Shown here one piece after another: positions 7,510 to 39,318 of a DNA stretch of 44,035 nucleotides. The stretch comes from an uncultured Candidatus Berkelbacteria bacterium (GTDB taxonomy: Bacteria; Patescibacteriota; UBA1384; CAILIB01). Position 1 is the first letter of the stretch; the number at the start of each line of letters is the position of its first letter. Where the stretch lies: NCBI GenBank assembly GCA_903834195.1, contig CAILIB010000018.1:1-44035 (forward strand), read 5' to 3'. The notes under the pieces were generated by a model. That model saw only the letters and a list, made by a program, of their open reading frames with translations. It searched no databases and was not told the origin of the DNA. Position numbers and translations under genes: made by a program.

Positions 7510-7551
7510 GCGATATTAGGCCAAAAAAGCCTAGTCTCGCTCTCTTTTTTT
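7510..7551 (+). terminator. Rho-independent terminator after the 217-residue gene
   Basis: TAGGC (7517-7521) pairs with GCCTA (7529-7533) around an A-rich loop. GCGA (7510-7513) pairs with TCGC (7537-7540) outside it, and a run of T follows at 7544-7551. It begins directly after the stop codon and lies at the end of the convergent ATP-grasp gene. Confidence 0.8.
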
Positions 7552-8599
7552 AATGCAACACATCACATGTCTTACTCGATGAATCCCAATTTGTGACACG
7601 ACCATTTTTTGGAATAGTAATAACATCTTCTTCAAATACTCCTTCTGCATGACCCATCTCCCCAAGCAAGAGTTGCGGAATCGTAACTGTGGTAACTCGA
7701 ACGTTTGCTTCCAGAAAAACTATGTTCCCTGTTTCTTTTGAAACAATGTAGTCGATTCCCCAAAAGCCTTGGTACGTTGTAAGCAGGCCTGTAAGCAATG
7801 CTGACACACATGCTTCAAGCCCCTGCCTAACTTGAATTGGCAAACTCTCAGGTGCGTGCAATGTACCACCAATACACGATGTTTTAGCATGTGTGGCGAA
7901 TATCTGTTCACTCCATCCAAAAACCACTGTATCGTCACCGCGGGTGTAGAGCGAAACACTACATGACACTCCTTGAACTTCTTCCTCCCAGTACCAATGA
8001 TCTGGATCTTTCTCGATCATCTCCCTGAAATTTTGCCCATCGTAGTTTTTCTCGTGTCCAACAGTACAGACTTCTAACCCACCACAGCCAAACTCATGTT
8101 TCAGGTAATACCCTGGTTGCACGTGATCAAGTATTGAATCCTTACCCCAGACAGATGTGAGTTCAGCTGGCACGCATTGCTTCTGCAAAACCTTATTATT
8201 GAATCGACAAAAGTCAGTGTACGAATAGGTACTTTTCTTGCCGTGCATTTCTGCTAGACGATCAATCGCCGGATGAGGAACTGCTGTCCAAATTTGATCT
8301 ATCTCGTCCCAATTCAACGTGTCCGGCAATCGCTCGGCAATTGAAACAAACCCGTGTGGGTGTGCAGATATACACGAGTGAACACCTTCACGTTGCAACG
8401 ATGGTAGATACCCATCATTCACTACTACAGTGCCGGCAGATACTACAGGTAGGAGCATGTTCTCGTAATACACCAACCAGGTACTATGTTCACCAACTGA
8501 ACTACTCGCAGCACGAAAGTCAGAAATATAGAGAGTTTTTGCAGAGCGAAACTCTGCAATGTGGCGAGGAGTAAGTCTAAAGAGTTCTAATGTGTGCAT
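7550..8599 (-). CDS. ATP-grasp domain protein, unknown substrate
   Basis: The protein has 349 residues. The C-terminal two thirds show an ATP-grasp layout. YYLKHEFGCGGLEVCTV gives the ATP-binding Lys and Gly-rich loop (about 175-190). WYWEEEVQGVSCSVSLY matches the 'EEF..G.E.SVS' strand (about 208-224). GFWGIDYIV...GNIVFLEANVRVTT supplies the metal-binding Glu and Asn (about 277-305). Such enzymes join a carboxylate, activated as an acyl-phosphate, to an amine or thiol. The N-terminal third is not recognised. The start is leaderless, with TATACT six bases upstream. It diverges from the nitrilase-fold gene with about 73 bases between the starts. Confidence 0.85.
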   Translation of the reverse strand: MHTLELFRLTPRHIAEFRSAKTLYISDFRAASSSVGEHSTWLVYYENMLLPVVSAGTVVVNDGYLPSLQREGVHSCISAHPHGFVSIAERLPDTLNWDEIDQIWTAVPHPAIDRLAEMHGKKSTYSYTDFCRFNNKVLQKQCVPAELTSVWGKDSILDHVQPGYYLKHEFGCGGLEVCTVGHEKNYDGQNFREMIEKDPDHWYWEEEVQGVSCSVSLYTRGDDTVVFGWSEQIFATHAKTSCIGGTLHAPESLPIQVRQGLEACVSALLTGLLTTYQGFWGIDYIVSKETGNIVFLEANVRVTTVTIPQLLLGEMGHAEGVFEEDVITIPKNGRVTNWDSSSKTCDVLH

Positions 8600-8611: not shown

Positions 8612-8672
8612 CAGGACCGTGTAAATCTGTTATATTCCACCTGCCAAATCTTTGGCTGAGGAGGCTTCGGCC

Positions 8673-9581
8673 ATGGACAATAAAACTTTTTGCTTGCAAC
8701 TTGGGATCCCCACAGTCCCCATTACCAGCTATGCCGCTGCCGCTAAATATTTCAACAAAGTAATCAATGAGCGTGTAGTTCCAAATGCTTCGAAAAATGG
8801 AGAAACGTATGTCGTCGGACCTGAGTTCTTAGATCTCCTGTACGGGATGATTGCGACAAATGAGCACGGAGTCCCTTTCCCGACCCCTGATACGATTCGA
8901 AGTATTGCCGAAACATCTTGGGAACAATTCTCGCGGCACATGTCGACATGCGCAAGCAAGAATCGTGTTTGGCTTTCAGGAACCTGTCTAATGCCAACTG
9001 ATACCGGCGTCAAAAACATGAGCGTCGTATTCGATAGCACTGGCAGGCTTGTACACAAATGCCCAAAGGTTTTCCTTACACCCAAGGAGATAGACATGGG
9101 CATCGTTCCAGGTAAGTTTTCCGAGATAACCATTTTGGAAACCACTGAATGGGGACGAATTGGATTCCCCACCTGTTTCGACAATTTCTCGAAGGAGGTT
9201 ATGGATGTGTATGCATCCTTAGACCCCCAACGACTTCATGTTGGCTCATTCGGAACGAGCAAATGGGACGATTACGAGTCGGAGGAATTCGGCGGTGACA
9301 ATCCACGCTGGCAGCCAGACGCCTGGCTAGATGTCACGATTCGATCGTTCCGTAAACTTCCAACTGTGAAGGTAATCTTCAACTCGTTCTGGAGCGGAAC
9401 TAGTCCCATTGGAACCTGCATCCCGCAATCAGCGATCACGAAATCGCACACAAGAAACAAAAAAATGGTGCAATGCCCATACGTTGGCATGAACGATATG
9501 GATATGCCTCACTTGTTTGAGTGGTGTGCGAGCATGCGAGAGGGAACCCAGGTTGGCTATTACTGGAATCACCAAGACTAG
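8673..9581 (+). CDS. Carbon-nitrogen hydrolase (nitrilase-fold) protein
   Basis: The ATG at 8673 is preferred over an in-frame TTG at 8652 because GAGGAGG (8658-8664) lies at the right distance before it. This gives 302 residues, normal for the family. The Glu-Lys-Cys triad is visible in order: Glu in VVGPEFLDL, Lys in HKCPKVFLTPKE, and the nucleophile Cys in GRIGFPTCFDN. Members hydrolyse nitriles, amides or carbamoyl groups, or transfer acyl groups; the substrate is unknown. A TATATT -10 element lies at 8631-8636. The divergent ATP-grasp gene suggests paired making and breaking of an amide bond, which is inference. Confidence 0.83.
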   Translation: MDNKTFCLQLGIPTVPITSYAAAAKYFNKVINERVVPNASKNGETYVVGPEFLDLLYGMIATNEHGVPFPTPDTIRSIAETSWEQFSRHMSTCASKNRVWLSGTCLMPTDTGVKNMSVVFDSTGRLVHKCPKVFLTPKEIDMGIVPGKFSEITILETTEWGRIGFPTCFDNFSKEVMDVYASLDPQRLHVGSFGTSKWDDYESEEFGGDNPRWQPDAWLDVTIRSFRKLPTVKVIFNSFWSGTSPIGTCIPQSAITKSHTRNKKMVQCPYVGMNDMDMPHLFEWCASMREGTQVGYYWNHQD

Positions 9582-10495: not shown

Positions 10496-10768
10496 TTACG
10501 CTACCTTACGATACACTTCTTTGCGGTGACCAATTTTTACTACTTGTACAATGAGTTGCTGACCCTGTATTTCATATATTATTCGATAGTCAGCGTGCCG
10601 AATTCGGAATAATTTTAGTGAGCCATGTAGCTTTGTTACACCCATCGGATATGGGTTAGCGGCAAGAGCTGCGATTTTCTTCACAATTGCCCACCGATAA
10701 ATGAGTGGCACCGCTGCCAATTCTTTCTTTGCTGTTTCAGTTATGTACACCGTATACGCGTGTGACAT
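10496..10768 (-). CDS. RelE/ParE-family toxin
   Basis: The protein has 90 residues, typical for the RelE superfamily. Hallmarks are an N-terminal helix pair (ETAKKELAAVP, RWAIVKKIAAL), the strand KLHGSLKLFRIRHADYRIIYEI with basic residues, and the C-terminal VVKIGHRKEVYRK with His-Arg and Tyr. RelE members of this form cleave mRNA on the ribosome. It starts 2 bases after the antitoxin stop. Confidence 0.92.
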   Translation of the reverse strand: MSHAYTVYITETAKKELAAVPLIYRWAIVKKIAALAANPYPMGVTKLHGSLKLFRIRHADYRIIYEIQGQQLIVQVVKIGHRKEVYRKVA

Positions 10769-10770
10769 AA

Positions 10771-10989
10771 TTACAGCAGACCTTCAGCTTTAAACTCCGC
10801 CACCACATCATCGAAAAGATGGAGTGGTTCTTTTTTGCGATGTATTGAGTCCTCAATATCTTCTAGATCCTCGAGGTACTGATACTTGAGTGCATCTTCA
10901 ACTAACTGGGAAAAACTTGTACCAGTTTCAGCCGCCCGCAGTTTAAGGGCACGAAATAACTTGTCGTTAAGTGTGATTGTGGTTCGCAT
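10771..10989 (-). CDS. Ribbon-helix-helix antitoxin
   Basis: The protein has 72 residues. The N-terminal ribbon-helix-helix DNA-binding motif (MRTTITLNDKLFRALKLRA, then GTSFSQLVEDALKY) covers about residues 1-40. The acidic tail (DLEDIEDSIHRKK, LHLFDDVVAEFKAEG) should wrap the toxin. It precedes the RelE-like toxin gene, the common antitoxin-first order, and probably represses its own promoter. Confidence 0.9.
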   Translation of the reverse strand: MRTTITLNDKLFRALKLRAAETGTSFSQLVEDALKYQYLEDLEDIEDSIHRKKEPLHLFDDVVAEFKAEGLL

Positions 10990-11067: not shown

Positions 11068-11835
11068 CTACGATCTTGCCACAGGAACTGCTAATTTCCA
11101 CAACGCTTCAAACTGCTGCCGATACGAGTCAGCAATCTTCTTATTTTCGATACTTACAATTGAGATATTGTCAGGATCCATTACCTCTAGGGCAACTTTG
11201 TTAGCAAAAATAACCGTGGCTACTGGGCCAACATAGGCACCTGGCAACTCCCGCACTTCTAGTAACGGTTGGGCAGCAAACTGCTCCGAGAAATCCTGCC
11301 CTTCAAAGGCAATCATACGTAGCGAGATATTCCGCTTGGTAAATAGTTTGGTGTACTTCTCAAACAGCGGCCACACCCCTTCCAACTGATTAAATCCTCG
11401 TCCTTGCCCACCAAGAATAAGGTACTCGTCATTCTTTTTTAATACGGTCAATACATCTTCAAATAGGGCTTCAAATGAACCAACACCTTCGCCAACCCGA
11501 ACCACATGCGGCTGACGTTGGTGCATACCCTTCAAAATTGGCTGAATTGCCTCGGCAACTTTTACCTTTTCCTCAACCCGTTTAATTAAAATATCTGGAT
11601 CGGTGACAGCAAAATAGGCCCGCTTACGCTTTTCAAACTGGCGGATGAGTCCACTCTCTTCCATGCGTTTGAGGGCGCGATACGCCTGCTCACGGTGCAG
11701 CTTTACGTTTTCCAATAATATTCCCACTGACGCTTCCCCGTTGCGCAGAATCTCCACGTACAGTGCTGCTTCGTGATTGGAAAGGCCAATTTCTTCCAAC
11801 TGTTGTATCACCGAGTTGTTGCTGTTTTCTTGCAT
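11068..11835 (-). CDS. TrmB-family transcriptional regulator of the RiPP locus
   Basis: The protein has 255 residues. The N-terminal winged helix-turn-helix (about 8-80: IGLSNHEAALYVEILRNGEASVGILLENVKLHREQAYRALKRMEESGLI) is the TrmB/sugar-regulator type. It is followed by a coiled link (RVEEKVKVAEAIQPILKG) and a ligand-binding-like domain. It is transcribed divergently from the peptide-ycaO genes. A perfect 14-bp palindrome sits in the spacer of its own promoter, and a second similar site overlaps the -35 of the facing promoter, so it probably controls both. AAGGAG lies 4 bases before its ATG. The inducing ligand is unknown. Confidence 0.9.
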   Translation of the reverse strand: MQENSNNSVIQQLEEIGLSNHEAALYVEILRNGEASVGILLENVKLHREQAYRALKRMEESGLIRQFEKRKRAYFAVTDPDILIKRVEEKVKVAEAIQPILKGMHQRQPHVVRVGEGVGSFEALFEDVLTVLKKNDEYLILGGQGRGFNQLEGVWPLFEKYTKLFTKRNISLRMIAFEGQDFSEQFAAQPLLEVRELPGAYVGPVATVIFANKVALEVMDPDNISIVSIENKKIADSYRQQFEALWKLAVPVARS

Positions 11836-11855: not shown

Positions 11856-11884
11856 ATTCTATAACACATGTGTTACAAAGTCAA
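11856..11884 (-). promoter_or_regulatory. Promoter of the trmB-type gene
   Basis: On the minus strand TTGACT (11879-11884) and TAGAAT (11856-11861) are separated by exactly 17 bases, a good sigma-70 promoter. The spacer holds the palindrome TAACACATGTGTTA. Bound regulator would block the polymerase, which suggests autorepression. Confidence 0.75.
11862..11875. promoter_or_regulatory. Operator-like palindrome TAACACATGTGTTA (site 1)
   Basis: A perfect 14-bp palindrome lies between the -35 and -10 of the regulator's own promoter. A closely related sequence, TAACAATGTGTTG, stands about 30 bases away at 11893-11905. Paired symmetric sites in a divergent gap next to a winged-helix gene are what a dimeric regulator would bind. 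Confidence 0.7.
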
Positions 11885-11892
11885 TATTTGTT

Positions 11893-11905
11893 GTAACAAT
11901 GTGTT
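11893..11905. promoter_or_regulatory. Operator-like site TAACAATGTGTTG (site 2)
   Basis: It matches site 1 except for one missing base in the centre and the last base. It overlaps the first bases of the -35 hexamer of the precursor-ycaO promoter, so regulator binding there should repress the peptide operon. Confidence 0.6.
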
Positions 11906-11932
11906 GACATATATGTATTTAACAGGTATAGT
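11904..11932 (+). promoter_or_regulatory. Strong sigma-70 promoter of the peptide-ycaO operon
   Basis: TTGACA (11904-11909) is a perfect -35, the spacer is 17 bases, and TATAGT (11927-11932) is a one-mismatch -10. Transcription should start near 11939, about 20 bases before the peptide gene. It is the best promoter I see in the window. Confidence 0.8.
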
Positions 11933-11959
11933 TGCGGTAATTAATTAGTAAATAAGGAC

Positions 11960-12034
11960 ATGAACTTGAACTCCGCAATTAAACCACAGCTTCCCTACGC
12001 CGGTAACAGCGCCATAAAGCCTCAGCTACCGTAA
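11960..12034 (+). CDS. Candidate RiPP precursor peptide with duplicated NSAIKPQLP
   Basis: The gene has 24 codons and a TAA stop. Residues 4-12 and 16-24 are both NSAIKPQLP, joined by Tyr-Ala-Gly, so the peptide is two 12-residue units. The DNA copies differ at 8 of 27 bases, all synonymous, and one Ser uses TCC against AGC, a two-base switch. That indicates selection on the amino-acid sequence rather than a recent duplication. AAGGA (11954-11958) is too close to the ATG at 11960 but ideally placed, 7 bases, for an in-frame TTG at 11966. The true product may therefore be 22 residues starting Met-Asn-Ser. Each unit has one Ser, the likely target of the YcaO enzyme, and there is no Cys or Thr. 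There is no obvious separate leader. Confidence 0.8.
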   Translation: MNLNSAIKPQLPYAGNSAIKPQLP

Positions 12035-12039
12035 CATTG

Positions 12040-12067
12040 AAAGAGACCTGCCTGAGCAGGTCTCTTT
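12040..12067 (+). terminator. Perfect 12-bp hairpin between peptide gene and ycaO
   Basis: AAAGAGACCTGC pairs perfectly with GCAGGTCTCTTT around the tetraloop CTGA. Only TTT follows before GTGTACC, so it is a weak terminator at best. It more likely acts as a partial terminator or mRNA stabiliser that keeps the peptide message far more abundant than the enzyme message. It begins 5 bases after the peptide stop. Confidence 0.7.
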
Positions 12068-12078
12068 GTGTACCAAAA

Positions 12079-13593
12079 ATGAAAAAATATATACTGAATA
12101 GTGACTGGGATATAATTCCTCGAAACGAAGGCGTTGAACTCGTACACCTTGTACAACCAGAACTCTCCTTCACATTGGCCTATTTTCCAAACCAAGTCCA
12201 ATTCTTCACCAAGATACTCCACGGTGCAACACGAAAAGAACTCAGCACACTCAATAATACGAAAATAGTATCCACACTTCGTGCACGTGGGGTAGTTTCC
12301 TATACTCAAATCACAAACAGCCCCCTCAAAACGCGTGACTACCTCAAACTTCTCCAGCACCACTGTGTAGGTGCAGGAAAAATACTAACAGAATGTCACC
12401 TACTTCCAGCTGGGCACAATCCACTGGCAAAACTTCTCAATGTGAGCTATTCAAGTGGCTTTGCACCCGCCTGCGTGCCGCACCAATCGTCGCTCAGTGG
12501 CGGCTGGGGTACTGACCCAGACCCAAAATTAGCCCAAATAAAGTCCATCGTTGAGGGAGTGGAGCGCTATGCCCTCGCCGACTATTCACTCACAAAGTTC
12601 AATAATACATCGCTGGACGATGTAAAAGATAAATTACTTACTACAGCTCAAATGTGCTCTTCTGAAGAAATTCTTAATTCAGCACAAAACCTCTATTGGC
12701 AAGAATTACACCAAATCTCCGGTGAAAAAACCATCTGCGCACCACTCGATTTTTTGCATCATCCAGTCAACTATACTGAGTTGCAACGACCTCCAGTTAC
12801 TGCACTCAATATTTCTGGTGTAGCCGGCCACCAAAGTATCAACGCCGCCATCACCAACGCCACATTGGAACTTTGCGAACATGAAGCACTCATGGTTGCA
12901 TGGTTCGGCAACCGAACAACACCCACAATTCGACATACGAGCCTACCACAACAATCTCAAGACATGATTCATGCTGCCGAAGCAATGGGGTGGAAAATTA
13001 TTCTCAAAGATATTTCTCTCGACCTTGTTCCTGTGGTGATGGCGGTTGGCCTAGGCCCAGTTGGAAAGCGCGCGTTAACTATCGGCTCCTGCGCAGCTTT
13101 TACATCTCGCTATGCAACTGGCAAAGCCTTATCCGAAGTATTCCGAGAAATACTACTCGACGAAAGTTCCCCTTCTGAAATCCCCGGTATCAATCGAGAA
13201 AACGTAAATGACATTGCCAGCCACAGTTACTTCTACGCCCATCACAAAAACCTAAAATATGCCCAACACCTCTGGGAAAATGGTGAAGAAATAGACGCAA
13301 CCGATATCCTTACCCACACTTCAACACCTATCGAAGAAAAAGATGAGTGCGAATACATCATTAAACACGTTCTCAAAAATAATTGCATCGAAACATATTT
13401 CGTAAACATTACACCAGAAGAAATTCGCACCCAAAATATTCAGCTGTATATAGTGCGAGTAATTGCTCCGGAAATGGCCCGCCTCACTGTCGGATACGGC
13501 AGACTTCCCGCCCAAACTGAGCGCTTTAAAATGCTGATCAAAACCTACGGCACACCAAAGGAACAAGACACTCTACTACACCCTTTCAGCTAA
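12079..13593 (+). CDS. YcaO cyclodehydratase with fused recognition-like domain
   Basis: The ATG at 12079 is chosen; an in-frame TTG at 12037 would start just before the hairpin. The protein has 504 residues. The YcaO ATP site is visible: SIVEGVER (about 156-163), SGVAGHQSINAAITNATLELCEHEA (about 246-270) and GKALSEVFREILLD (about 365). YcaO enzymes use ATP to activate peptide backbone amides and form azolines, amidines or thioamides. The C-terminus, LLHPFS, resembles the Pro-rich end of azoline-forming YcaOs. The first about 110 residues (PELSFTLAYFPNQVQFFTKILHGATRKEL) look like the winged-helix leader-recognition domain, here fused. No dehydrogenase, TfuA or separate ThiF-like partner is adjacent. 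Confidence 0.9.
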   Translation: MKKYILNSDWDIIPRNEGVELVHLVQPELSFTLAYFPNQVQFFTKILHGATRKELSTLNNTKIVSTLRARGVVSYTQITNSPLKTRDYLKLLQHHCVGAGKILTECHLLPAGHNPLAKLLNVSYSSGFAPACVPHQSSLSGGWGTDPDPKLAQIKSIVEGVERYALADYSLTKFNNTSLDDVKDKLLTTAQMCSSEEILNSAQNLYWQELHQISGEKTICAPLDFLHHPVNYTELQRPPVTALNISGVAGHQSINAAITNATLELCEHEALMVAWFGNRTTPTIRHTSLPQQSQDMIHAAEAMGWKIILKDISLDLVPVVMAVGLGPVGKRALTIGSCAAFTSRYATGKALSEVFREILLDESSPSEIPGINRENVNDIASHSYFYAHHKNLKYAQHLWENGEEIDATDILTHTSTPIEEKDECEYIIKHVLKNNCIETYFVNITPEEIRTQNIQLYIVRVIAPEMARLTVGYGRLPAQTERFKMLIKTYGTPKEQDTLLHPFS

Positions 13594-14505: not shown

Positions 14506-14922
14506 TTATGAGTAGAGTTCTTGGTAGGTGTACCCGCGCTTAATCAGCTCGGCTGTACAACTCTTCTTCTTGATCCAATAATCAGAAACTGCTGAACGTT
14601 CTGCATCATCCAAATCTTCAAGTGATGCCGCATTTCGTTGAAATACTTTCTGCGCCCGTTCGGCTAAATCTTGAGACAGACTCATTTGAACCATGAGTTC
14701 TTTCACATCTTTCTCAAGTGCCTGAAGCTTGGCAAAACTCTTGCCTAAATCGGTAGCAGGATCGTTCATATCGCTAATAATTTTGGCACCAGCTTCTCCA
14801 AGTGAGCCCGCCATTTCAATCTGATCACGGAATAATTTCAGTGAAGCTGAAACTCCGTTCTGCAGAAACAGGTGGATCATGTTGTTCGATTCCTGCAGTT
14901 CTAAGTCGTAAAGAGTTGCCAT
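14506..14922 (-). CDS. Helical protein at the end of the chemotaxis operon
   Basis: The protein has 138 residues, almost wholly helical and without membrane segments. Runs such as KSFAKLQALEKDVKELMVQM and SQDLAERAQKVFQR suggest coiled-coil packing. No family is recognised. It begins 2 bases after the response regulator stop and is the last gene before the operon terminator. That position argues for a part in the same signalling pathway, for example as an adaptor or output of the response regulator. This is inference from order only. Confidence 0.72.
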   Translation of the reverse strand: MATLYDLELQESNNMIHLFLQNGVSASLKLFRDQIEMAGSLGEAGAKIISDMNDPATDLGKSFAKLQALEKDVKELMVQMSLSQDLAERAQKVFQRNAASLEDLDDAERSAVSDYWIKKKSCTAELIKRGYTYQELYS

Positions 14923-14924
14923 GA

Positions 14925-15341
14925 TTAAATATATTTCTTTACCAAGTCTACAATTTTCGGTAGTCCGGTGTTTGCTTTAATAAAGTAGTCTTTCGCCCCT
15001 AGCTCGGTTGCCCGATCCATACTTTCCATGTCTGACACACCGGTGAGGAATATCAGTGGGATGCTTGCAGTTTCTGGGGTGCCTTTAACATACTTGAGAA
15101 CTCCGAACCCATCAAGGTTTGGCATCTTTATATCGCAGAGAATCAGTTTAAACTTCTGATCTTGTGCAAGTGTATTGATTCCAATTTGACCGTCTGCTGC
15201 AACGATAAGGTCGTAGCCTGAGGTTGTTAGAATCAATGTAAGTGCTTGTGAGAAAAATGGATCATCCTCACAGAGCAAGATACGTGGCTTGGCTGTTGCA
15301 ACAGCCACCTCTTCTTCTTTTGGTTTACCGAATAGTCCCAT
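14925..15341 (-). CDS. Single-domain response regulator
   Basis: The protein has 138 residues: a short N-terminal extension (MGLFGKPKEEE) and a receiver domain from about residue 18. The acidic pocket is CEDD (about 24-27), the phosphoacceptor Asp70 lies in LILCDIKMPNLDG, the Thr is in IFLTG and the Lys is Lys122 in YFIKANTG. It has no output domain, so it acts by protein contact like CheY. It is the third receiver protein encoded in the operon, counting CheB. Confidence 0.92.
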   Translation of the reverse strand: MGLFGKPKEEEVAVATAKPRILLCEDDPFFSQALTLILTTSGYDLIVAADGQIGINTLAQDQKFKLILCDIKMPNLDGFGVLKYVKGTPETASIPLIFLTGVSDMESMDRATELGAKDYFIKANTGLPKIVDLVKKYI

Positions 15342-15347
15342 GGTAGG

Positions 15348-16430
15348 TTATGCGTTACTAGTAGTTGACCTGCTCCCCACCTTTGGTGGTGGGTTAGGCA
15401 TAGGTTGTGGATTAATAATGGTTAGGGCAGAGTGCGGCAGAACATCACCGTGCTGACTACTCTGAATTAAGCGAATTGCCCCCTGTGAAGGTGTCATGGT
15501 AGGCAAAATAATATCAGCTTGCGGGGTAATATTGCGAATTTCTTGCATGACTCTCTCAGCATAACTCCCCTTCATCTTCATAAGTCCACCTGCGATCACA
15601 ACTGGAAGGTGATTCGACTTTTTCAGATCCAATCGGCTGATGATAGTCTTATACGCATCTACAATATCAGCCACTGACTCATTGATGATCTTACTTAACT
15701 CAAGACTGTGCATAAGGGCTGGGTCATTCACTACATAACTCAATTGAGCAATCTCACGCACCGGAAGACCTTCAGAAGCGTAGATCCACCCAATCAATTC
15801 CTCCGGACTTTTCAAGGCTAAGGCAGCGAGAACTTTATCTGTTATCGGAGTTTTTGCAGAACGACCATCATACTCGCGCATAACCTGGCGCAAAAGTGAA
15901 CGCCCAATCCAATATCCTGAACCCTGGTCACCGAGCAGATGCCCCCACCCTCCAGCTGTAGCCTCACGGCCATCACCCGCCACACCGTAACAATGTGCGC
16001 CGGTACCGATTGTAATTGAAACTCCGTAATTTTTCTCAGTTCCCGACTTGAGGGTAATTAACCCATTGTGCACGAAGGAAATTTTCTTGCAGTTAAAAAC
16101 CGGACTATCCTTATCGAGCTTTTGAATAAAACTTCGAATCCGTGAAACATCGCTTGGACTATCAAAGCCAGACATTCCAACACAAACTTGGTCAAAGTTT
16201 TGATCTAAAGCGCGATCCTTATGCTTCATGTGCATGCTTGCACGAGCGCTGTTTGCAACTTTTAAGAGAGCTTCGTAGGTATGAACCGGCGAAACATTAT
16301 GTGGATTTGCCCCGTAGTTCAACAGTGAGCGGGCCAAAATAAATCCACTCTCATCAGTAATAACAGCTTCGGTGTGCGAACCTCCAGCGTCAATTCCTAG
16401 ATATAATTGTGGGGTAAGTGTGCTGAGCAT
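15348..16430 (-). CDS. BadF/BadG-type ATPase, N-acetylglucosamine-kinase-like
   Basis: The protein has 360 residues. It has the sugar-kinase/Hsp70 actin fold: phosphate-1 motif YLGIDAGGSHTEAVITD (about 9-25), a phosphate-2 region TIGTGAHCYGV, the diagnostic GGWGHLLGDQGSGYWIGR (about 157-174), and the adenosine motif VVIAGGLMK. The GDQGSGYWIG block is characteristic of N-acetylglucosamine kinases. AGGGGAA overlaps the cheD stop as its ribosome site, so it is translated within the chemotaxis operon. A sugar kinase there is unusual: it may phosphorylate an amino sugar taken up by chemotaxing cells or act as a sensor. Confidence 0.88.
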   Translation of the reverse strand: MLSTLTPQLYLGIDAGGSHTEAVITDESGFILARSLLNYGANPHNVSPVHTYEALLKVANSARASMHMKHKDRALDQNFDQVCVGMSGFDSPSDVSRIRSFIQKLDKDSPVFNCKKISFVHNGLITLKSGTEKNYGVSITIGTGAHCYGVAGDGREATAGGWGHLLGDQGSGYWIGRSLLRQVMREYDGRSAKTPITDKVLAALALKSPEELIGWIYASEGLPVREIAQLSYVVNDPALMHSLELSKIINESVADIVDAYKTIISRLDLKKSNHLPVVIAGGLMKMKGSYAERVMQEIRNITPQADIILPTMTPSQGAIRLIQSSQHGDVLPHSALTIINPQPMPNPPPKVGSRSTTSNA

Positions 16431-16438
16431 ATATTCCC

Positions 16439-16918
16439 CTAAAGACTAGTTCTAACTTGTACAACTCCACTACTGAGATCAAAGCTGGCAGCGCGCCCAA
16501 CTGATCCTCCAACATCTTCTCCAACAATTCTAATACTGTACGTTCCAAGAAGTGCTTTAATCGATTCAACGTTTTTTTCACCAACTCGAACCGATCGTCC
16601 CTGAATTTCAGGAAACATACTTGCGCCACCAACTAACTTTGCAACAAGTGCCGAAGCAGAAACACCCATTGTTGAAAATTGGCTAATGATTACCTTAATT
16701 GCAGCATCGGCATAACGCAGGTCTTCCTCGGTATAACTTGTTGCATTAGCTGCTTCGGGACGAACTGGCAACATAATATGCGCCAGTGCCCCCTTTTTTG
16801 TTTGGGCATGAAACATGCAGAGAGCCACACAGGAGCCAATACCAGCAGTAGTGAGCACAAATGGTGCATCAGCGATTTTCAGCGTGCCCATAGATACTTC
16901 TACGATGTTATTTTCCAC
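16439..16918 (-). CDS. cheD: Chemoreceptor glutamine deamidase CheD
   Basis: The protein has 159 residues. CheD deamidates Gln residues on chemoreceptors and binds CheC. The catalytic triad is visible: Thr24 in LTTAGIG, Cys30 in GSCVALCMF and His47 in GALAHIMLP. The end holds VGGSVGRAASFDLSSGVVQVR, the typical CheD C-terminal strand pair. Its start overlaps the cheC stop by 11 bases, and the CheC-CheD pairing fits archaeal and Thermotoga/Bacillus-type systems. Confidence 0.95.
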   Translation of the reverse strand: MENNIVEVSMGTLKIADAPFVLTTAGIGSCVALCMFHAQTKKGALAHIMLPVRPEAANATSYTEEDLRYADAAIKVIISQFSTMGVSASALVAKLVGGASMFPEIQGRSVRVGEKNVESIKALLGTYSIRIVGEDVGGSVGRAASFDLSSGVVQVRTSL

Positions 16919-17525
16919 TCGGTACCTCTTCTGGTGTCGCTTGGATTTTACTCAAAATAGTATCCAGCCCTGGCTTATCAAACAGAATTAGGAAGAACCC
17001 ACTCACCACATGTCCTTCGACAGTAAATGGTAAGTGAATTGCATACGCATCGCTCCCTGTTTCAGCGTACGAGATTATTACTTGATCTATCACTGCGCCG
17101 GCGTAGTCGTCGGTATAGTTTGGTACGGTCAACATAATCGAAAGATGCAGCCGATTAGCCATTTCACTAATAATCACGCCACTTGAAATGTTCCCCAACT
17201 CTTTAAGAGCCGATGCCTCAAACTCACCTAGTGTGGTTGTGGTCCCACTCGCATTACCCATCATTAAATCAACCAGAATAGCAGCCTCCGACGCACTCAC
17301 AAAGAGAAATATATCACCAACAATATCGCCCACTAGTGGGATATAAATACTGGCTAAACTAGCAACTCCAATAATCTTACTGATTTCTGAAAGTGGAACT
17401 TGCCCCAAATGACCAAGGTTCAACTGAACTGGTTGACGTACAACAGATGCCAAGCCCGCGCTCAGCTTTTCCTGCAGAACCGTCGCCAACCCACTCAGTG
17501 GACCTTGCTCGATGTTTACTTCCAT
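16908..17525 (-). CDS. cheC: CheY-P phosphatase CheC
   Basis: The protein has 205 residues. CheC removes phosphate from CheY-P. The usual CheC has two ExxN sites. The second is intact (Glu109 and Asn112 in EFEASALKELGNISSG), followed by the expected helix EMANRL. At the matching N-terminal position I read LQEKLSAG (Glu19, Ser22), so the first site seems to have lost its Asn. The start overlaps the cheA stop. It probably works as a heterodimer with CheD. Confidence 0.9.
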   Translation of the reverse strand: MEVNIEQGPLSGLATVLQEKLSAGLASVVRQPVQLNLGHLGQVPLSEISKIIGVASLASIYIPLVGDIVGDIFLFVSASEAAILVDLMMGNASGTTTTLGEFEASALKELGNISSGVIISEMANRLHLSIMLTVPNYTDDYAGAVIDQVIISYAETGSDAYAIHLPFTVEGHVVSGFFLILFDKPGLDTILSKIQATPEEVPSGK

Positions 17526-19558
17526 GTTAACCCGTCAAAGTTAATGATCGGAGCTGCATTTCCATCGGCTAGAATAGTTGCACCTGAGAAGTGCGTACTA
17601 CGTTTCAAGAGTGGCCCAAGTGGTTTAACCAGAATTTCTTCTTCGGAAATAATCTTATCTACCACACAACCGATCATCTCTTCACCGCGGCGCACGAGTA
17701 CAACGGTTACCAAGGAATTATCTTCCTTTACACCACCGATTCCACCAAACATCGTATCAAGATCAAAGAGGAATACTTCCTGACCATCAATAGCTACTAC
17801 ATTTGTACCTACTGAAGAACGCAGATCGCTCTGGCGCAATTGCACTGTACGGACAATTTCGTTTGCTGGTAGAGCGAATACTTGCTTACCAACACCAGCC
17901 AAAAGTGCTTGCATGATTGCGAGCGTCATTGGCAACCGAATAATAAATGCAGTTCCCTTTCCAACTTCAGTTTCAACAGTAATGTCACCACCAAGCTTTT
18001 TGATTGAACTTCGCACTGCACTCATTCCTACGCCACGACCAGAAATATCGGTTACTTCTTCACTGGTTGAAACACCATCAAGGAAGAGCAATTTCTCATG
18101 TTGATTTCCCTGAAGAATCTCATGTAACTCTGCTGCAGTTAACACACCCTTCTTTACAGCTGCATGTCCAAGCTTCTCCCACTCGATACCTTGACCATCG
18201 TCCCTAATCTCAACATAGAACTTATTGTCTTTGGTGTATGAGCGCATAGTAAGGACTGCTTCTTCAGCTTTTCCTATAGCTTTACGTAGCTCTGGAAGCT
18301 CAATTCCATGATCAATTGCATTTCGTACTAAGTGCACAAATGGCTCTGTCAAGTGATCAATAATAGTACGGTCAACCGTAGTATCTTCACCTTCCATCTC
18401 CAAACGAACCTTCTTATTCGTCTTATGTGCAACGTCGCGAACTAATCGTGGAATCGTATGCAGCGCCATGCTGATTGGGAAGAGACGTGCTTGCATTACG
18501 TAGAACTGAAGATCTGTAACGAGACGATCCAAACGGTGAATTTCTGCCTTTAATGCAACATCAGCCTGCACTTGAGAGCTCGTCTTGAGACGCATCTTTA
18601 GGAGTACGAGCTCTTCTGAGATTCCGATCATCTGATCAAGACGTTCAACTTTAAGCGTTACAGTTGAGATTTGTTCACTTGTAGCTGCGGCTGGTTTTGC
18701 TGGAGCATCTGGAGTTGTAACTTCTTTATTACTAGCCAGTACTTCACTAGCGGCGGCAGCGGCATCAGCTGTTGAACCAATTACAGTATTAGCGTTACCC
18801 GCTATTTGACCACCAACTTGCGGTTTTGGCATTGGCACATCATCGAGAGACATTGGCATTGGGGCAAACGCTGAATTCGTTGGAGGCGTAGCCGCAACTA
18901 CTGGAGTTGGAACTGGAGCTGGTGCGACAACGGCCGGCACAACTACTTCTGGCATTGTTGGCGCAGGTACTACAGGTGCAACAAGTACTGACGCAGGTAC
19001 TGCAACTTCAACAACGGCTGGAGCAACAGGAACTTCACTTGCTGGAACAGGTACTACCGGAGCAACCTCTGCAACTACAGGGGTCTCAACTACAGGGGTC
19101 TCAACAACAGGAGCCTCAACTACAGGAGCTGCTGCAGGCTGAGGAGCCTCACCTGACTTACCGAAACCATCAGTAGTAAGACCTGTTATAGCTTTAATAC
19201 GATCAACATACTCTTTGCAAGAAAGCTCTGTACTACCAGCTGCAATCGCATCAAGCGAAGCGCTAATTTGATCAAATGCCTCAAAGAGCGCATCTGCCAG
19301 CTCTTTTTGCATCTTCATAGAACCGTTTCCGATAGCAGTAAACAAATCTTCAATAACGTGACCAAGCGTGGCAATCTGCTCAAATCCCATTGCACCACTT
19401 TCACCCTTCAACGAGTGACCTGTGCGCATGAGTTCTTCCATCAGACTGAGATCATTTGGATTTGATTCAATCTTCAACAAAATATCTTGCATTAACTGCA
19501 GATGCTCACGAGCTGTCTGTAAGAACAGGTCTTTAAATTGATCCATTTCCAAACTCAT
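17516..19558 (-). CDS. cheA: Chemotaxis histidine kinase CheA
   Basis: The protein has 680 residues. The order is P1 Hpt domain (1-130, phosphorylated His48 in TGHSLKGE); a long linker (about 136-296) dominated by Val, Pro and Ala where a P2 domain would normally sit; P3 dimerisation (about 297-365); P4 ATPase (about 366-545, with HLVRNAIDHGIE, DDGQGI and GRGVGMSAV); and P5 CheW-like domain (about 546-680). It phosphorylates CheY and CheB when receptors are unoccupied. The start overlaps the cheB stop by 4 bases. The linker shares its composition, and the string VPASVLV, with the tail of the CheY-like gene two genes upstream. Confidence 0.97.
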   Translation of the reverse strand: MSLEMDQFKDLFLQTAREHLQLMQDILLKIESNPNDLSLMEELMRTGHSLKGESGAMGFEQIATLGHVIEDLFTAIGNGSMKMQKELADALFEAFDQISASLDAIAAGSTELSCKEYVDRIKAITGLTTDGFGKSGEAPQPAAAPVVEAPVVETPVVETPVVAEVAPVVPVPASEVPVAPAVVEVAVPASVLVAPVVPAPTMPEVVVPAVVAPAPVPTPVVAATPPTNSAFAPMPMSLDDVPMPKPQVGGQIAGNANTVIGSTADAAAAASEVLASNKEVTTPDAPAKPAAATSEQISTVTLKVERLDQMIGISEELVLLKMRLKTSSQVQADVALKAEIHRLDRLVTDLQFYVMQARLFPISMALHTIPRLVRDVAHKTNKKVRLEMEGEDTTVDRTIIDHLTEPFVHLVRNAIDHGIELPELRKAIGKAEEAVLTMRSYTKDNKFYVEIRDDGQGIEWEKLGHAAVKKGVLTAAELHEILQGNQHEKLLFLDGVSTSEEVTDISGRGVGMSAVRSSIKKLGGDITVETEVGKGTAFIIRLPMTLAIMQALLAGVGKQVFALPANEIVRTVQLRQSDLRSSVGTNVVAIDGQEVFLFDLDTMFGGIGGVKEDNSLVTVVLVRRGEEMIGCVVDKIISEEEILVKPLGPLLKRSTHFSGATILADGNAAPIINFDGLTWK

Positions 19559-20586
19559 AGAGACTCCACCATGCCTGCAACTGCAGGAATTATCTGATTA
19601 AGTGGCAAGACGTGATCGGCCAAGTCTTCCTTTACAACTTCTTGGGCCATTCCATATACCACGGATGTTTCTTCATTCTGAACGTAGGTTGTACCGCCCT
19701 TGAATTTAATTTCACGCATTCCAACTACCCCATCTTGACCCATCCCTGTAAGGATCACCCCTACCATAGATCGGCCAAAAATCGGTGCGAGGGAAAGCAT
19801 CATTTTGTCTACCGTTGGACGCAATTTCCACTGTGGTGGATCAAGCGTCAACGTTGCTTCTGCACGTGTTACTAAGTTCGTTGTTACTGGCTTAAAAACC
19901 AAATGGTAATCACCTTTCGCAACGAGGATTTTACCAGCTTCGACTACATCCCCATTTTCAGCTTCTTTCACTGGAATGGGACAAATTTTAGCAAGACGCT
20001 GGATGAATCGTGATGTAAACTGACCTGGCATATGTTGAACAATCACTACCCCTGCCGAAAAGTTTTTCGGAAATTGTTGGAGAATTTCTGACAGCGCTTC
20101 TGGTCCACCGGTCGACGAACCAATTGCTACAACCACTCTTGGCTCATGACGATGGATATTTGGGTGCACACTTTTAGTATGTGGAGCATGCTGACGAATC
20201 TCATGCACAAGTTGTTCTCGTACTACTGCCAAATTATCTGAACCTTCAGGTCGTTGCACAAAACCCACAACCCCTGCCTGAATTAGTGGCAGGATATGCC
20301 TCGCCATCTTCGGATCTGAATCTGTGAGTGCAATGAGTGGCATTGATACACCTTGCAGTAAATCAAACCTTCTCAGCGGCAGTTCATGATTTAAAATTGC
20401 ATCAAGCACTACTACATTTGCGCCAGATTTCTTTATCTCTTCTTTTAATCCTTCTTCAAATGGAGCACTTCCAACCACAGCAATACCCTGCTCAAGCGAG
20501 AGCATCTGAGTAAGAGCGAAGCGCACGAGCACATCGTCACTAACTACAAATACGGTACTAGGTGTTTCAGGAGTACGATCAGACAC
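19555..20586 (-). CDS. cheB: Chemoreceptor methylesterase CheB
   Basis: The protein has 343 residues. The C-terminal methylesterase (about 148-343) has its triad: Ser158 in AIGSSTGGPEAL, His185 in VQHMPGQF and Asp285 in LTGMGQDGV. The N-terminal receiver keeps the acidic pair (SDD, residues 16-18) and Asp62 in VVVLDAI. The otherwise invariant Lys of the KP motif is replaced by Arg112 in FVQRPEG, so phosphorylation control may be altered. CheB removes methyl groups from receptors and can deamidate them. It sits between the cheY-like gene and cheA. Confidence 0.95.
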   Translation of the reverse strand: MSDRTPETPSTVFVVSDDVLVRFALTQMLSLEQGIAVVGSAPFEEGLKEEIKKSGANVVVLDAILNHELPLRRFDLLQGVSMPLIALTDSDPKMARHILPLIQAGVVGFVQRPEGSDNLAVVREQLVHEIRQHAPHTKSVHPNIHRHEPRVVVAIGSSTGGPEALSEILQQFPKNFSAGVVIVQHMPGQFTSRFIQRLAKICPIPVKEAENGDVVEAGKILVAKGDYHLVFKPVTTNLVTRAEATLTLDPPQWKLRPTVDKMMLSLAPIFGRSMVGVILTGMGQDGVVGMREIKFKGGTTYVQNEETSVVYGMAQEVVKEDLADHVLPLNQIIPAVAGMVESL

Positions 20587-20595
20587 AAGACTGAA

Positions 20596-21351
20596 TTATG
20601 TTAGCTGGATAGGTGGAGTTGGAACATCAACTGCGGATGCAGGTACCACCTCAGTTACAACAGGTGTTGAAACTGGAGCTGGTGCAGTTGGTATGCTTGG
20701 TGTAACCAAGACTGATGCAGGAACAGTAACCACTGGGGGTACTGGAGCAGCAGGAATGACTGGTGCTACTGCGACTGGAACTGAAATAGGTGTTGGCACC
20801 ACTGGCGTAACAACTGCTTCTGGTTGCACTGGAAGTGCTGGGGCATCTGGAATCACAACAGAAACTGGTACTACTACTGGCGGTGTTACAGCTACTGGAG
20901 TTGTCGGAATCACCTCAGGAACTACTTGTGCAGGTGCAGCGGGTGTAGCAGGTGCTGTCAGAGCCGTAGGAGCAACTGCCCCCGCAGGCATCTCCCCGCT
21001 CACAACCTTGTTAAACACCTCACGAATTTGTTCTGGTTGAAATGGTTTTGCAAGAAACGCATTAGCCTTAAGTGCTTCAGCTTTCTGCACCATTTCATCC
21101 TGACTAATCGATGTAACAAAGATGATCTTTGCTTCTGGGTTAATCGCCCGAATTTCTTCCATGGCCATAATGCCATTTTTGACTGGCATGATGATATCGA
21201 GGAATGTTACGTCAAACCTGTAGTTTCGGTACAACTCAACAGCTACGTCACCATTCTCAGCTTCCATGAACTCAACATTTGGTGTGTCTTTTAGCGCAAC
21301 CTTAATGATGGTGCGCATGAATGCCGAGTCGTCGGTGAGGAGTATTTTCAT
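20596..21351 (-). CDS. CheY-like receiver with long Pro/Val/Ala/Thr tail
   Basis: The protein has 251 residues. Residues 1-118 form a complete CheY receiver: acidic Asp7-Asp8, phosphoacceptor Asp52 in VTFLDIIMP, Thr80 and Lys102 in FLAKPF. Residues 119-251 are a low-complexity tail of Val, Pro, Ala and Thr (for example TPVVPTPISVPVAVAPV) with no recognised fold. The same kind of sequence, including VPASVLV, forms the linker of CheA. CheY normally has no tail, so this may tether it in the array or place it at a motor or pilus machine. Confidence 0.9.
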   Translation of the reverse strand: MKILLTDDSAFMRTIIKVALKDTPNVEFMEAENGDVAVELYRNYRFDVTFLDIIMPVKNGIMAMEEIRAINPEAKIIFVTSISQDEMVQKAEALKANAFLAKPFQPEQIREVFNKVVSGEMPAGAVAPTALTAPATPAAPAQVVPEVIPTTPVAVTPPVVVPVSVVIPDAPALPVQPEAVVTPVVPTPISVPVAVAPVIPAAPVPPVVTVPASVLVTPSIPTAPAPVSTPVVTEVVPASAVDVPTPPIQLT

Positions 21352-21362
21352 AAATAACGCGG

Positions 21363-23195
21363 TTAGTTAGACCCTTCTTCTTTGTCACGAGTCTCAAGAA
21401 TCTTATCCATAAGACCTTCTGGAATAAGTGGCTTACTTGCACTAACAGGGGCTGCTGGAGCTTGATGATGCGTAACTACAGGAGCTGCTGCCGGAGTAGA
21501 AACAGTATGTGACTTAATCAGGTTCTCAATTTTGGCAGCATCAGGAGCGTTTTTTGGATGTGACATTTCGAGCACATCTGAAACCTTGAAACGACTAATC
21601 AACGACTGAAGCTCTTGAGAAGTAGCAGCTAACTGTTGAGCTGCACTCGCAACTTGCTGCATAGATGAACTGGTCTGTTGAACACCAGAGCTCATCTGCT
21701 GACTTGAAGAGGCTGATTGCTGAGCTACTGCTGCAACTGCATCTACTGAACTTTCGATAGCTGAAACGCGTTGTCCAATTGATTGAAGTGCTGAAAGCGC
21801 TTGGTCTACTACTTTGCCGCCGTCTTCAACTTCTTTACGGCCAGATTCCATGCTAGATACAGCTTCATCAGTACTACTCTTAATCTGACTAATCAGTTCT
21901 TCGATGTGCTTTGTGGCATTCTGTGATTCTTCAGCAAGCTTACGCACTTCATCAGCTACAACTGCAAATCCACGACCGGCTTCACCAGCACGAGCAGCTT
22001 CGATTGCAGCGTTCAGTGCCAAGAGGTTTGTTTGACCAGCAATGCTGTTAATCGTATCAACGATGCCAACGATTTCCTGACTCTTTGATCCAAGCGAAGA
22101 AACTGCATTTGAAGACTTTGTTACCGCGTCAGCCAATGTTTTCATCTTAGCGCCAGCTGCTTCAGCTGCTTCAGCACCACTCTTTGATTCGGTACCAAGT
22201 GACTTTGCCTCACCAGAAACCTGGGTTGTCTGCTTTGCCAAGTTCTCACTACCCGCTGCAACTTCTTGAACAGCACTACTCACCTGCTGAGTTGCTGCAT
22301 TTACTTGCTGTGTGGAAGAAGCCAGCTGCTGTGATGTTGCCGAAATGGTTTGCATCCCGGTCGACACCTTGCCAATGATTACTTCAATGTTTTCAACAAA
22401 CTTGTTGAACCAAAGGGACAATGTTCCAAACTCATCCTTTGAAGTAGCATCCAGGCGTTGAGTAAGATCGCCTTCACCTTGTGCAATATCACGAATACGA
22501 GCCGTAATAGCTGAAACACTTCCAGTGATCTGGCGAATGATAAAGAATGAAAGCGCACCGGTTAGAGCTAAGATAATCAGGGCCAGCGCGTAATCGAGAG
22601 TGTTCCGACTGGTGATTGTAGCTGTTGCATCATCTTGTGCAGCGGTTAGATCATCACCTGCCAAAGTAGCTAGTTTATCAACACTTGCTCGATCAACTTT
22701 ATAGGCACTTGCAAGTGAAGTTGTAAGCACTGTCTGGGCTTGTGCTAATGAAACTGCATCTCCTTTTTGAATAAGTGGAACGAACTGAGTGTCCATTACC
22801 TTAAAGAAGGCAGCACCACTATCATTTAACTCACCAAGAGTAAGGTCTCGTACAGCTCCGGCATCAAGTGTGTCTGACCAAAACTTCTGACGGGTTGCAA
22901 ACTGACCCTCCAAATCTTGATATGCCTTAATATGATCTGCTCGACTCGAAGTATCAGTATCATTCAACATCAAGTTGGCATCCAGGTAACTCTCAATTAC
23001 ATAAAGAGGTGGTGGAAGAATATCAGCAACAACATCCTTATCATTCGAAATACGCATGTAGCGCGGACTATTAATTGCAACCTCAGTAACAGTTTGGGAA
23101 CTGAGCCAGATGTACGCAGCAAAACCAACAACAAACACGCCGAACAAGAGGATCAACTTGTTACGTACGCTTATATCTTTGAGAGCTAGTGTCAT
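21363..23195 (-). CDS. Methyl-accepting chemotaxis protein 1
   Basis: The protein has 610 residues. Transmembrane segments lie at about 13-31 and 200-220, with a mostly helical extracytoplasmic sensor of about 165 residues between them, like four-helix-bundle sensors. A HAMP domain follows (about 222-275), then the signalling coiled coil. The hairpin tip [19 protein letters not shown] leads into [19 protein letters not shown]. The C-terminus ends in a Pro/Ala linker and [16 protein letters not shown], almost the same as the tail of MCP 3. It is the second gene of the operon, after cheW. Confidence 0.96.
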
Positions 23196-23205
23196 TGTGA
23201 AAATG

Positions 23206-23775
23206 TTATGCTTGTGGCTTGACGATTTGATCGCCAGCGGTTGGTATATCGTCTTCTTTTAAAACACGATGAAGATTAAGAATAAGTATTACACGCTCAT
23301 CTACCACCATTACGCCGTGAATATACTCAGCATCCACTTTCAAATTTCCCATTCCTTCAGCAGAGCGTACTGCATCTGGATTGAAATTCATTACTGAACT
23401 CACCGTATCTACCAATACACCAAAGAGTGTCTTGTCAGTTTTGACCAAGATAATGTAGCCTTCTTTACCATCTTCACGCTGCAGACCAAAAAGACGCGCT
23501 AAGCTCACGACTGTAGCAACAGTGCCACGCACATTAATAATTCCAGAAACGTATTCTGGAGCGTTTGGAAACGGCGTAATATCCCCTGCAGGAATTATCT
23601 CTTGGATATCGAGAATAGGTGCCGCGTACTCTTCTTCACCCAAACGGAACACCACATACTGTTCAGTTTGCTCAACATTTTTCCCTTGTTCTGCACCAGT
23701 TTGCGGCACTGGCGAGCCCCCCTTAATTTCTTCCATGTTGAGTAAAGTATTTATTTTACTTAAGTTGTTGATCAA
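23206..23775 (-). CDS. cheW: CheW adaptor 1
   Basis: The protein has 189 residues from a TTG start, or 176 from Met14. The CheW domain begins near [22 protein letters not shown] (about 40-61) and includes [22 protein letters not shown], the strand-turn motif common to CheW proteins. It couples receptors to CheA. It heads the main chemotaxis operon, with its promoter in the divergent gap shared with a cheY. Met14 has no ribosome site, and the TTG lies about 30 bases from the predicted transcription start, so the start is uncertain. Confidence 0.94.
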
Positions 23776-23812
23776 ATATCTGACAAATAAGTTGATCTAT
23801 CTAGTCAAAAAT

Positions 23813-23842
23813 ATTGTAATTGACCAGGAATGAAACTACAAT
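23813..23842. promoter_or_regulatory. Symmetric divergent promoter of cheW operon and cheY
   Basis: ATTGTA (23813-23818) and TACAAT (23837-23842) form an inverted repeat. On the + strand TTGTAA (23814-23819), 17 bases, then TACAAT make a promoter for cheY. On the minus strand TTGTAG (23836-23841), 17 bases, then TACAAT (23813-23818) make one for the cheW operon. Each -10 overlaps the other direction's -35, so two polymerases cannot occupy it together. Confidence 0.65.
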
Positions 23843-23870
23843 AGATTAGAAATATCAGTAAAAATACACC

Positions 23871-24257
23871 GTGAAAAAAGTCCTTGTGGTTGATGACCAA
23901 GCCTTTATCCGTCAAATTTTCATGCAGTTGATTCGTCAGATTCCTGACACTGAAGCAATGGAAGCTGAAAATGGAAATGCTGCACTTGGCAAAATGAAAG
24001 TTGCCCACCCTGACCTCGTACTTCTTGACATTACAATGCCTGGAAAAGATGGTTTGAGCGTTCTGCAAGAAATGCGGGCCGATCCTACCCTCTTCGAAAT
24101 TCCGGTCATTGTAATTAGCGCCCACGCTGACCAAGAAGCACACACCAAGGAATTGGGTGCAAAGGCGTTCATTAACAAAGTTGACTTGAACAATATTGAT
24201 CTTGGCGGAATCATCCGCGAGTTCATTGGTGTTCAGGCTGAAGCAATCGCCGCGTAA
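23871..24257 (+). CDS. cheY: Chemotaxis response regulator CheY
   Basis: The protein has 128 residues from a GTG start. The receiver motifs are complete: Asp8-Asp9, phosphoacceptor Asp53 in LVLLDITMPGKDG, Ser83 in IVISAH and Lys103 in FINKVDL. It has no tail, unlike the other CheY in the window, and is the better candidate for the free signal carrier. It is divergent from the che operon and shares its promoter region, which should keep the two in step. No ribosome site is visible. Confidence 0.93.
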   Translation: MKKVLVVDDQAFIRQIFMQLIRQIPDTEAMEAENGNAALGKMKVAHPDLVLLDITMPGKDGLSVLQEMRADPTLFEIPVIVISAHADQEAHTKELGAKAFINKVDLNNIDLGGIIREFIGVQAEAIAA

Positions 24258-24361
24258 CAAAGCACGAGATTGTTCTGATTTTGGTAGACTCTGCTTGTCA
24301 GCGCCTGCCATTTTCGGTATGGTTGAGATACTAATTATAGTGATCTGTCAGTTCTTCTATC

Positions 24362-25144
24362 ATGATCTCAACATACATCTCTCTACTTGGTGAATTTGGT
24401 TTAGATAACCAAGAATCTCGCACCTACCTTACCCTCCTTGAAATTGGTGCTGCTAATATTTCCGACATTGCACTGCACTCAGGCATAAAGCGCACTTCAA
24501 TATACAACTTCATTGGCCACCTGGTTGAAATAGGAGTTGTAAATCAGAGTGTCCAAGGTAAAAAGCGAATTTACAAAGCTGTAGATCCTGAGAGCCTTGT
24601 AACCCTTCAAGAAAAGAAGCTTGAAACGTTCAAGAAACGAGCAAAAGAGCTCGCGCTGTTTGTAAATCCAAACGTAGAAAAGCCACGTATCACCCACTAT
24701 GTTGGAACTGATCAAATCAAACAGATTTTTAACGAAATTGTGAACTGTAAACATGAGTGCATGTTTATTTGGCCCCACACATTAATTCCAACTACAGTAA
24801 AATGGGGCGATGATTACTTGGGTGATTTAGAAGAAATGCGTATCAAGTCCGGCGTGACTCACCGCTTACTCCGCATTCCAAGTTTAGATCTTGATAATTT
24901 CATTACTCCCAGCCTAGCTGATGAGCATTTGCGTGAAATCCGCTACGCTTTGAAAGGAACTGACTTTCCAATGGCAATGTGCATTTACGATACTGGAAAG
25001 GTTGCCTTTGTTTCGTCTCACCGTGAGTCTTTTGGATTTATGATTGAAAGCAAAGAGCTCTATCAATCAATGACGTTTCTTTTCAACCTATTTTGGAACT
25101 CGCTCGAGAAGCCAGAAAATATAATTCGCGAGAGCTCTAAGTAA
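24362..25144 (+). CDS. TrmB-family transcriptional regulator 2
   Basis: The protein has 260 residues. The N-terminal winged helix-turn-helix (about 5-75: FGLDNQESRTYLTLLEIGAANISDIALHSGIKRTSIYNFIGHLVEIGVV) is the TrmB type and is followed by a coiled segment and an effector-like domain (VGTDQIKQIFNEIVN). It lies between cheY and a histidine kinase pair, so it could adjust chemotaxis genes, though no matching operator is obvious. It converges with the response regulator gene, with 1 base between the stops. Confidence 0.88.
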   Translation: MISTYISLLGEFGLDNQESRTYLTLLEIGAANISDIALHSGIKRTSIYNFIGHLVEIGVVNQSVQGKKRIYKAVDPESLVTLQEKKLETFKKRAKELALFVNPNVEKPRITHYVGTDQIKQIFNEIVNCKHECMFIWPHTLIPTTVKWGDDYLGDLEEMRIKSGVTHRLLRIPSLDLDNFITPSLADEHLREIRYALKGTDFPMAMCIYDTGKVAFVSSHRESFGFMIESKELYQSMTFLFNLFWNSLEKPENIIRESSK

Positions 25145-25145
25145 G

Positions 25146-25535: not shown

Positions 25536-25539
25536 TGAA

Positions 25540-38701: not shown

Positions 38702-38817
38702 TCAACATCAAACAGAGGTTAGACCGTTTCTTTTCTGTCGACTATACCTTAGACTTAATGAGTACCTGTGCGTCCATATTTGGCGTACGTATTCAAAAGA
38801 TGGGTAATGTATCTCAT

Positions 38818-39303: not shown

Positions 39304-39318
39304 TCACACTAAACGTAT

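Follow-up and report, generated by a model that had tools for sequence, protein, structure and literature searches.

The stretch of DNA analyzed here (the window; all 44,035 nucleotides of contig CAILIB010000018.1 of an uncultured Candidatus Berkelbacteria bacterium) contains, directly before the gene of a YcaO protein, a frame of only 24 codons in which the nonapeptide NSAIKPQLP occurs twice. The peptide products of these small, probably host-dependent bacteria are little known. The locus raises the question of whether this frame is a gene and, if so, whether its product is the substrate of the neighboring enzyme, as in a RiPP pathway. Its features are collected in Table 1.

Table 1. Positions of the TrmB, peptide and YcaO genes and of associated elements within the window
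Feature	Position	Strand	Remarks
Transcription regulator of the TrmB family, encoded divergently to the peptide	11068–11835	-	Pfam TrmB, 3.5e-11
Near-perfect palindrome TATAACACATGTGTTACA in the trmB/peptide gap, operator-like	11860–11877	.	putative regulator-binding site
24-base element ATTTGTTGTAACAATGTGTTGACA, operator-like, overlapping the -35 box	11886–11909	+	23/24 bases identical in the relative G002
Sigma-70-type promoter, TTGACA-17-TATAGT	11904–11932	+	11/12 consensus bases
AAGGA, Shine-Dalgarno-like, 1 base before ATG (AAGGAcATG)	11954–11958	+	direct reading
Peptide gene, putative RiPP precursor, MNLNSAIKPQLPYAGNSAIKPQLP	11960–12034	+	open reading frame; comparison with G002
Unit 1, NSAIKPQLP	11969–11995	+	G002 counterpart NSPIKPQIP
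Unit 2, NSAIKPQLP	12005–12031	+	G002 counterpart SAPTHPSLP (ungapped alignment)
Perfect 12-bp hairpin between the peptide and YcaO genes	12040–12067	+	no T run; absent in G002
YcaO protein, 504 residues, lone (no partner gene)	12079–13593	+	Pfam PF02624, 1.7e-31, cut-off exceeded
N-terminal part of YcaO (about residues 1–74, borders approximate), RRE-like	12079–12300	+	predicted beta-beta-beta-alpha-alpha-alpha

The peptide and its two units

The 24-residue peptide starts with ATG, its two units are separated by Tyr-Ala-Gly, each unit contains one Ser while Cys and Thr are missing, and the frame ends in Pro-stop. The initial annotation described the units as identical in all nine residues while differing silently at 8 of 27 bases, including a switch of the Ser codon, and deduced long selection on the peptide. 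A recount agrees: the eight differences are distributed 1/1/6 over codon positions 1/2/3, all of them are synonymous, and Ser is encoded by TCC in one unit and AGC in the other. The synonymous sites between the units are near saturation (6 of 6.5), and eight changes placed at random on either unit would leave all nine residues intact with a probability of 1–2 x 10^-6. Together with the conservation in another genus described below, this silent-only change bears out the proposed selection.

The degenerate DNA pattern of a unit occurs twice in the window and in none of 100 shuffles of it. The same pattern, which also fits the peptide of the relative, is absent elsewhere in the source genome and from 379 other Patescibacteria genomes. 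A missed N-terminus of the YcaO protein was considered as the origin of the frame and rejected, as 119 bases and a difference in frame separate the two starts in the window, and a stop codon lies between them in the relative.

The corresponding locus in another genus

When the YcaO protein was used as a query against 99 relatives, one other genome gave a match, with 44% identity. This genome, G002, is a Candidatus Berkelbacteria MAG of the same family and another genus (contig JAGVEG010000097.1). The gap between its TrmB and YcaO genes contains a frame of 24 residues, MANSPIKPQIPMPDSAPTHPSLPR, which ends 9 bases before the YcaO start, so that the order TrmB–peptide–YcaO is kept in two genera. 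The motif NSxIKPQ[LI]P is common to both peptides at the equivalent place and behind an equivalent promoter. An ungapped alignment of the two covers 21 residues; in it, unit 1 shares NS-IKPQ-P (7/9), while unit 2 shares 3/9 and keeps the P-x-L-P pattern; the G002 peptide ends in Pro-Arg. The alignment score of 53 compares with a maximum of 33 in 5,512 background frames, taken from related DNA (82 kb), and it was bettered by none of 5,000 gap shuffles and none of 20,000 shuffles of peptide composition.

Because the relative keeps the motif, its place and its promoter, and the motif is absent in 379 genomes, this comparison of two loci shows a genuine peptide gene with linkage to TrmB and YcaO. 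The 24-residue gene is evolutionarily preserved under selection, and the same evidence supports its translation. The initial annotation had named, as a refuting observation, relatives that have this YcaO gene and no conserved peptide frame; in the one relative available the frame is present, so that the proposal was not refuted. Scans of genome contigs for more relatives gave the G002 locus only. Viral contigs yielded no YcaO relative, and four matches to the peptide pattern found there sit inside unrelated frames; phages gave no relative, and plasmids gave remote YcaO proteins only (22–26%).

YcaO genes are present in 13/380 genomes of the phylum. The nearest other one (locus L006, genome G365) encodes a protein of 23–25% identity that can be aligned end to end, including the N-terminus; it adjoins a SagB-type peptide dehydrogenase, that is, a RiPP setting. 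An NSxIKPQxP peptide was not found near this gene, and the class of G365 yielded no further relative besides G365 itself. The YcaO genes of L006, L007–L011, L013–L016 and L018–L019 lie beside, or are fused to, SagB-like dehydrogenases and appear to belong to azole-peptide loci.

The YcaO protein and its N-terminal part

The YcaO gene does follow directly on the peptide, as first described, with its ATG 45 bases past the peptide stop codon. The YcaO domain is canonical. In profile comparison the protein is similar to MJ1094 of archaea as well as to the peptide cyclodehydratases TruD, MusD and LynD, and the ExxER and N...E..E..A regions are visible in the alignment. The SagD-family model TIGR03604 gives a match of 4.9e-30 with a score of 104.7, under the family cut-off of 219.25. 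A proline-rich C-terminus is typical of azoline-forming YcaO proteins; the C-terminus here reads LLHPFS (window) or LHPFS, and the proline-rich PxPxP end is missing.

The N-terminal part appears to be RRE-like. A model of the first 98 residues, made from two sequences, has a pLDDT of 56 overall and of about 65 in residues 1–70, the full-length AlphaFold model having a pLDDT of 31. The best of 350,542 PDB chains compared with the N-terminal model is the leader-bound lasso RRE TbiB1 (E 0.07, probability 0.89); a second TbiB1 chain is in fourth place, and the third and fourteenth places are taken by the cyanobactin oxidase ThcOx. Going by the titles of the entries, both TbiB1 and ThcOx are RRE proteins. 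Since all PDB matches stay above E 0.001 and hhalign found no significant similarity to other candidate RREs, the assignment serves as a lead.

Neither the SagB-type dehydrogenase (TIGR03605) nor the TfuA partner (PF07812) was found in the source genome (G000) or in G002, which are 76% and 84% complete, so that the missing partner genes are no proof of absence. A low-power search for the E1-like TIGR03882, in which the controls also gave no match above the cut-off, found none in either genome. The two loci share no gene for a transporter, a protease or immunity.

Promoter, hairpin and TrmB regulator

The strong promoter that the initial annotation had assigned to the peptide is present; G002 has identical TTGACA and TATAGT hexamers with a spacer of 16 bases. 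When the whole genome was searched for the operator-like pattern, a single match, with one mismatch, came up, and no informative second site. The pattern demanded one base after the palindrome that is missing in the window and is too strict to exclude a regulon, because the locus itself is missing from its match list.

The hairpin between the two genes, which the initial annotation had left unmentioned, is strong (-22 kcal/mol, z -5.6). An intrinsic terminator was not found after the peptide in either locus, the hairpin having no T run in the window and G002 having no hairpin; for these reasons a role in termination or attenuation was rejected as unlikely. The hairpin is inessential, since it is absent from G002, although it may shift the peptide-to-enzyme ratio, perhaps toward more peptide than enzyme.

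The G002 ortholog of the regulator is 59% identical and divergent at the equivalent place. TrmB matches number 18 in the source genome and 10 in G002, and no NSxIKPQxP-like motif lies beside other TrmB genes in nine stretches of these two genomes. A literature search found no described TrmB–YcaO pair, nor the motif of the peptide.

For a genome of 1.1 Mb, eighteen matches represent a striking expansion. Many are clustered on contig C15 at 75–123 kb (L043–L045), one also lies at 24362–25144 of the window, and the divergent neighbor of these TrmB genes is often a methyltransferase gene or a small unknown gene. On its other side the trmB gene adjoins a ParE toxin-like and ribbon-helix-helix antitoxin-like pair (10496–10989, - strand). 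Elsewhere in the window, an ATP-grasp-domain protein (7550–8599, - strand) is divergent from a 309-residue protein without Pfam or NCBIfam match (8652–9581, + strand), and the two possibly form another small pathway. The segments 14506–26625 and 38638–41043 encode, as read from the translations, a large chemotaxis-like set with methyl-accepting proteins and CheA/CheB/CheW/CheY/CheD-like proteins, unusual for so small a genome, and 41691–44015 on the - strand encodes a large protein that looks secreted and has a C-type lectin domain (3.6e-12).

A probable minimal RiPP pathway and its alternatives

The peptide probably serves as precursor in a minimal RiPP pathway, in which the RRE-like/YcaO fusion acts on it; the three-gene arrangement kept in the relative makes a role as substrate of a new, stripped-down pathway most likely. 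The initial annotation had proposed a RiPP precursor from position. The linkage to YcaO now holds in two genera, and we infer the role as substrate, together with the RRE binding, the type of modification, the control by TrmB and the hairpin device.

In the proposed mechanism, the RRE-like N-terminal part would bind the precursor through NSxIKPQ[LI]P, and the ATP-dependent YcaO domain would then modify the peptide backbone. In known YcaO reactions, activation of a backbone amide with ATP is followed by attack of a side chain to give an azoline, of an amine to give an amidine or of sulfide to give a thioamide (PMC7136475). The modification would most likely be placed at the conserved Ser or at the residue before it, as an oxazoline or as an amidine formed via an oxazoline, with a change of -18 Da. 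A thioamide is less likely because no TfuA was found, and the presence of one conserved Ser per unit makes an oxazoline or a Ser-assisted amidine the best guess. The divergent TrmB might repress or sense from the operators in the shared gap.

Several observations count against the RiPP reading. A length of 24 residues is very short for a leader and a core (31–89 for AmiA-type precursors, PMC8442711), only two loci are available, G002 shows little conservation of unit 2 and the enzyme has the LLHPFS end. The loci have no transporter, protease or immunity gene in common, and the RRE-like assignment comes from a low-confidence model.

The identity of the two units in the window favors two equivalent targets, and units 1 and 2 of this peptide are probably two cores. 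The comparison with G002 favors unit 1 as a recognition sequence: only unit 1 is canonical in the G002 sequence, and with 7/9 of its residues conserved, as opposed to 3/9 in unit 2, it may have this function. A leaderless two-gene system, which would consist of a self-recognizing RRE–YcaO fusion and a 24-residue precursor whose units are both recognition and product, with a dedicated TrmB and a peptide modified on the backbone at N-S/K-P-Q without known relative, is a tentative extension that we regard as possible but doubtful.

The same difference in conservation is an argument for a division into leader and core, where unit 1 would be a docking leader for the RRE-like domain, unit 2 a species-variable core and the identity in the window a lineage-specific trait. 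RRE domains do bind N-terminal leaders (PMC7470986). This arrangement fails, however, to explain why unit 2 was held to the protein sequence of unit 1 while the silent sites became saturated, and it is rather unlikely.

The peptide, modified or not, could also be a ligand or signal of TrmB, instead of or besides a secreted product, given that a conserved divergent TrmB adjoins it, that the operator-like element is common to both loci and that there is no transporter nearby. Yet the family is large in both genomes, the members checked have no similar adjoining peptide, and known TrmB ligands are sugars, making this role improbable.

Slightly less probable still is a regulatory upstream peptide, the translation of which would control YcaO expression together with the hairpin, by attenuation or arrest as in TnaC. 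TnaC is a peptide of 24 residues that also ends in Pro, and the position between promoter and enzyme gene, the strong hairpin and the Pro-stop end would all suit such control. On the other hand, the hairpin has no T run, and G002 keeps the peptide without the hairpin. Moreover, the peptide of G002 ends in Pro-Arg, the N-terminal unit rather than the end is conserved, a stretch of one controlling amino acid is missing and Rfam gave no match above threshold. A chance open frame, which the shortness of the frame and 14 other frames of 20 residues or more in the region might suggest, was rejected as next to impossible in view of the silent-only divergence, the conservation in another genus and the absence of the motif elsewhere.

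If the minimal pathway is true, a locus this small would show how short the list of parts required for a YcaO pathway can be. The putative substrate is short enough to be synthesized, so that the chemistry of the enzyme on a near-leaderless peptide is directly testable.

Comparison with known systems

RiPP precursors have been described in CPR bacteria at graspetide loci (PMC8939145), which differ from the present locus in their ATP-grasp chemistry and unrelated precursors; no description of RiPPs of a TrmB–YcaO kind in these bacteria was found in the literature. The YcaO protein of L006 has equal length, comes from the same phylum and is alignable end to end, but a SagB-type dehydrogenase is encoded alongside. 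Linear azol(in)e peptides of the SagD family (TIGR03604) are made with a YcaO of the same peptide-cyclodehydratase kind, whereas the source genome yielded neither a SagB dehydrogenase nor an E1-like partner and the peptide has no heterocycle-rich core.

TruD and LynD of the cyanobactin pathways are similar in YcaO profile, and their precursors contain repeated cores that are flanked by short recognition sequences (PMC8442711 for the latter). Unlike the present protein of about 500 residues without an E1-like domain, they are RRE–E1–YcaO fusions, acting on precursors of the 70-residue class in pathways with proteases.

A close parallel is found in the streptamidine RiPPs of Actinobacteria (AmiA/AmiD), which are characterized by a six-membered amidine and in which a lone YcaO works on precursors that carry a motif one to three times and have no Ser/Thr/Cys-rich regions (PMC8442711). 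The systems share a YcaO of the standalone class, repeated motifs, a precursor poor in Ser/Thr/Cys and a conserved core Ser (PMC8442711). The initial annotation regarded the peptide as unlike classical azole peptides; this stands as to the missing Cys/Ser/Thr-rich core, but the repeated motif and the unusual core are not unprecedented, as streptamidine precursors share both. The present locus differs in that neither peptide has the ALV of precursor motif A or B and that AmiB, the AmiC hydrolase, the AmiE dehydrogenase and transporters are missing. Its precursor has 24 residues as opposed to 31–89, and an N-terminal RRE-like part takes the place of a separate partner. The locus thus departs from streptamidine in its motif, its very short precursor, the putative fusion with an RRE-like part, the TrmB partner and its phylum.
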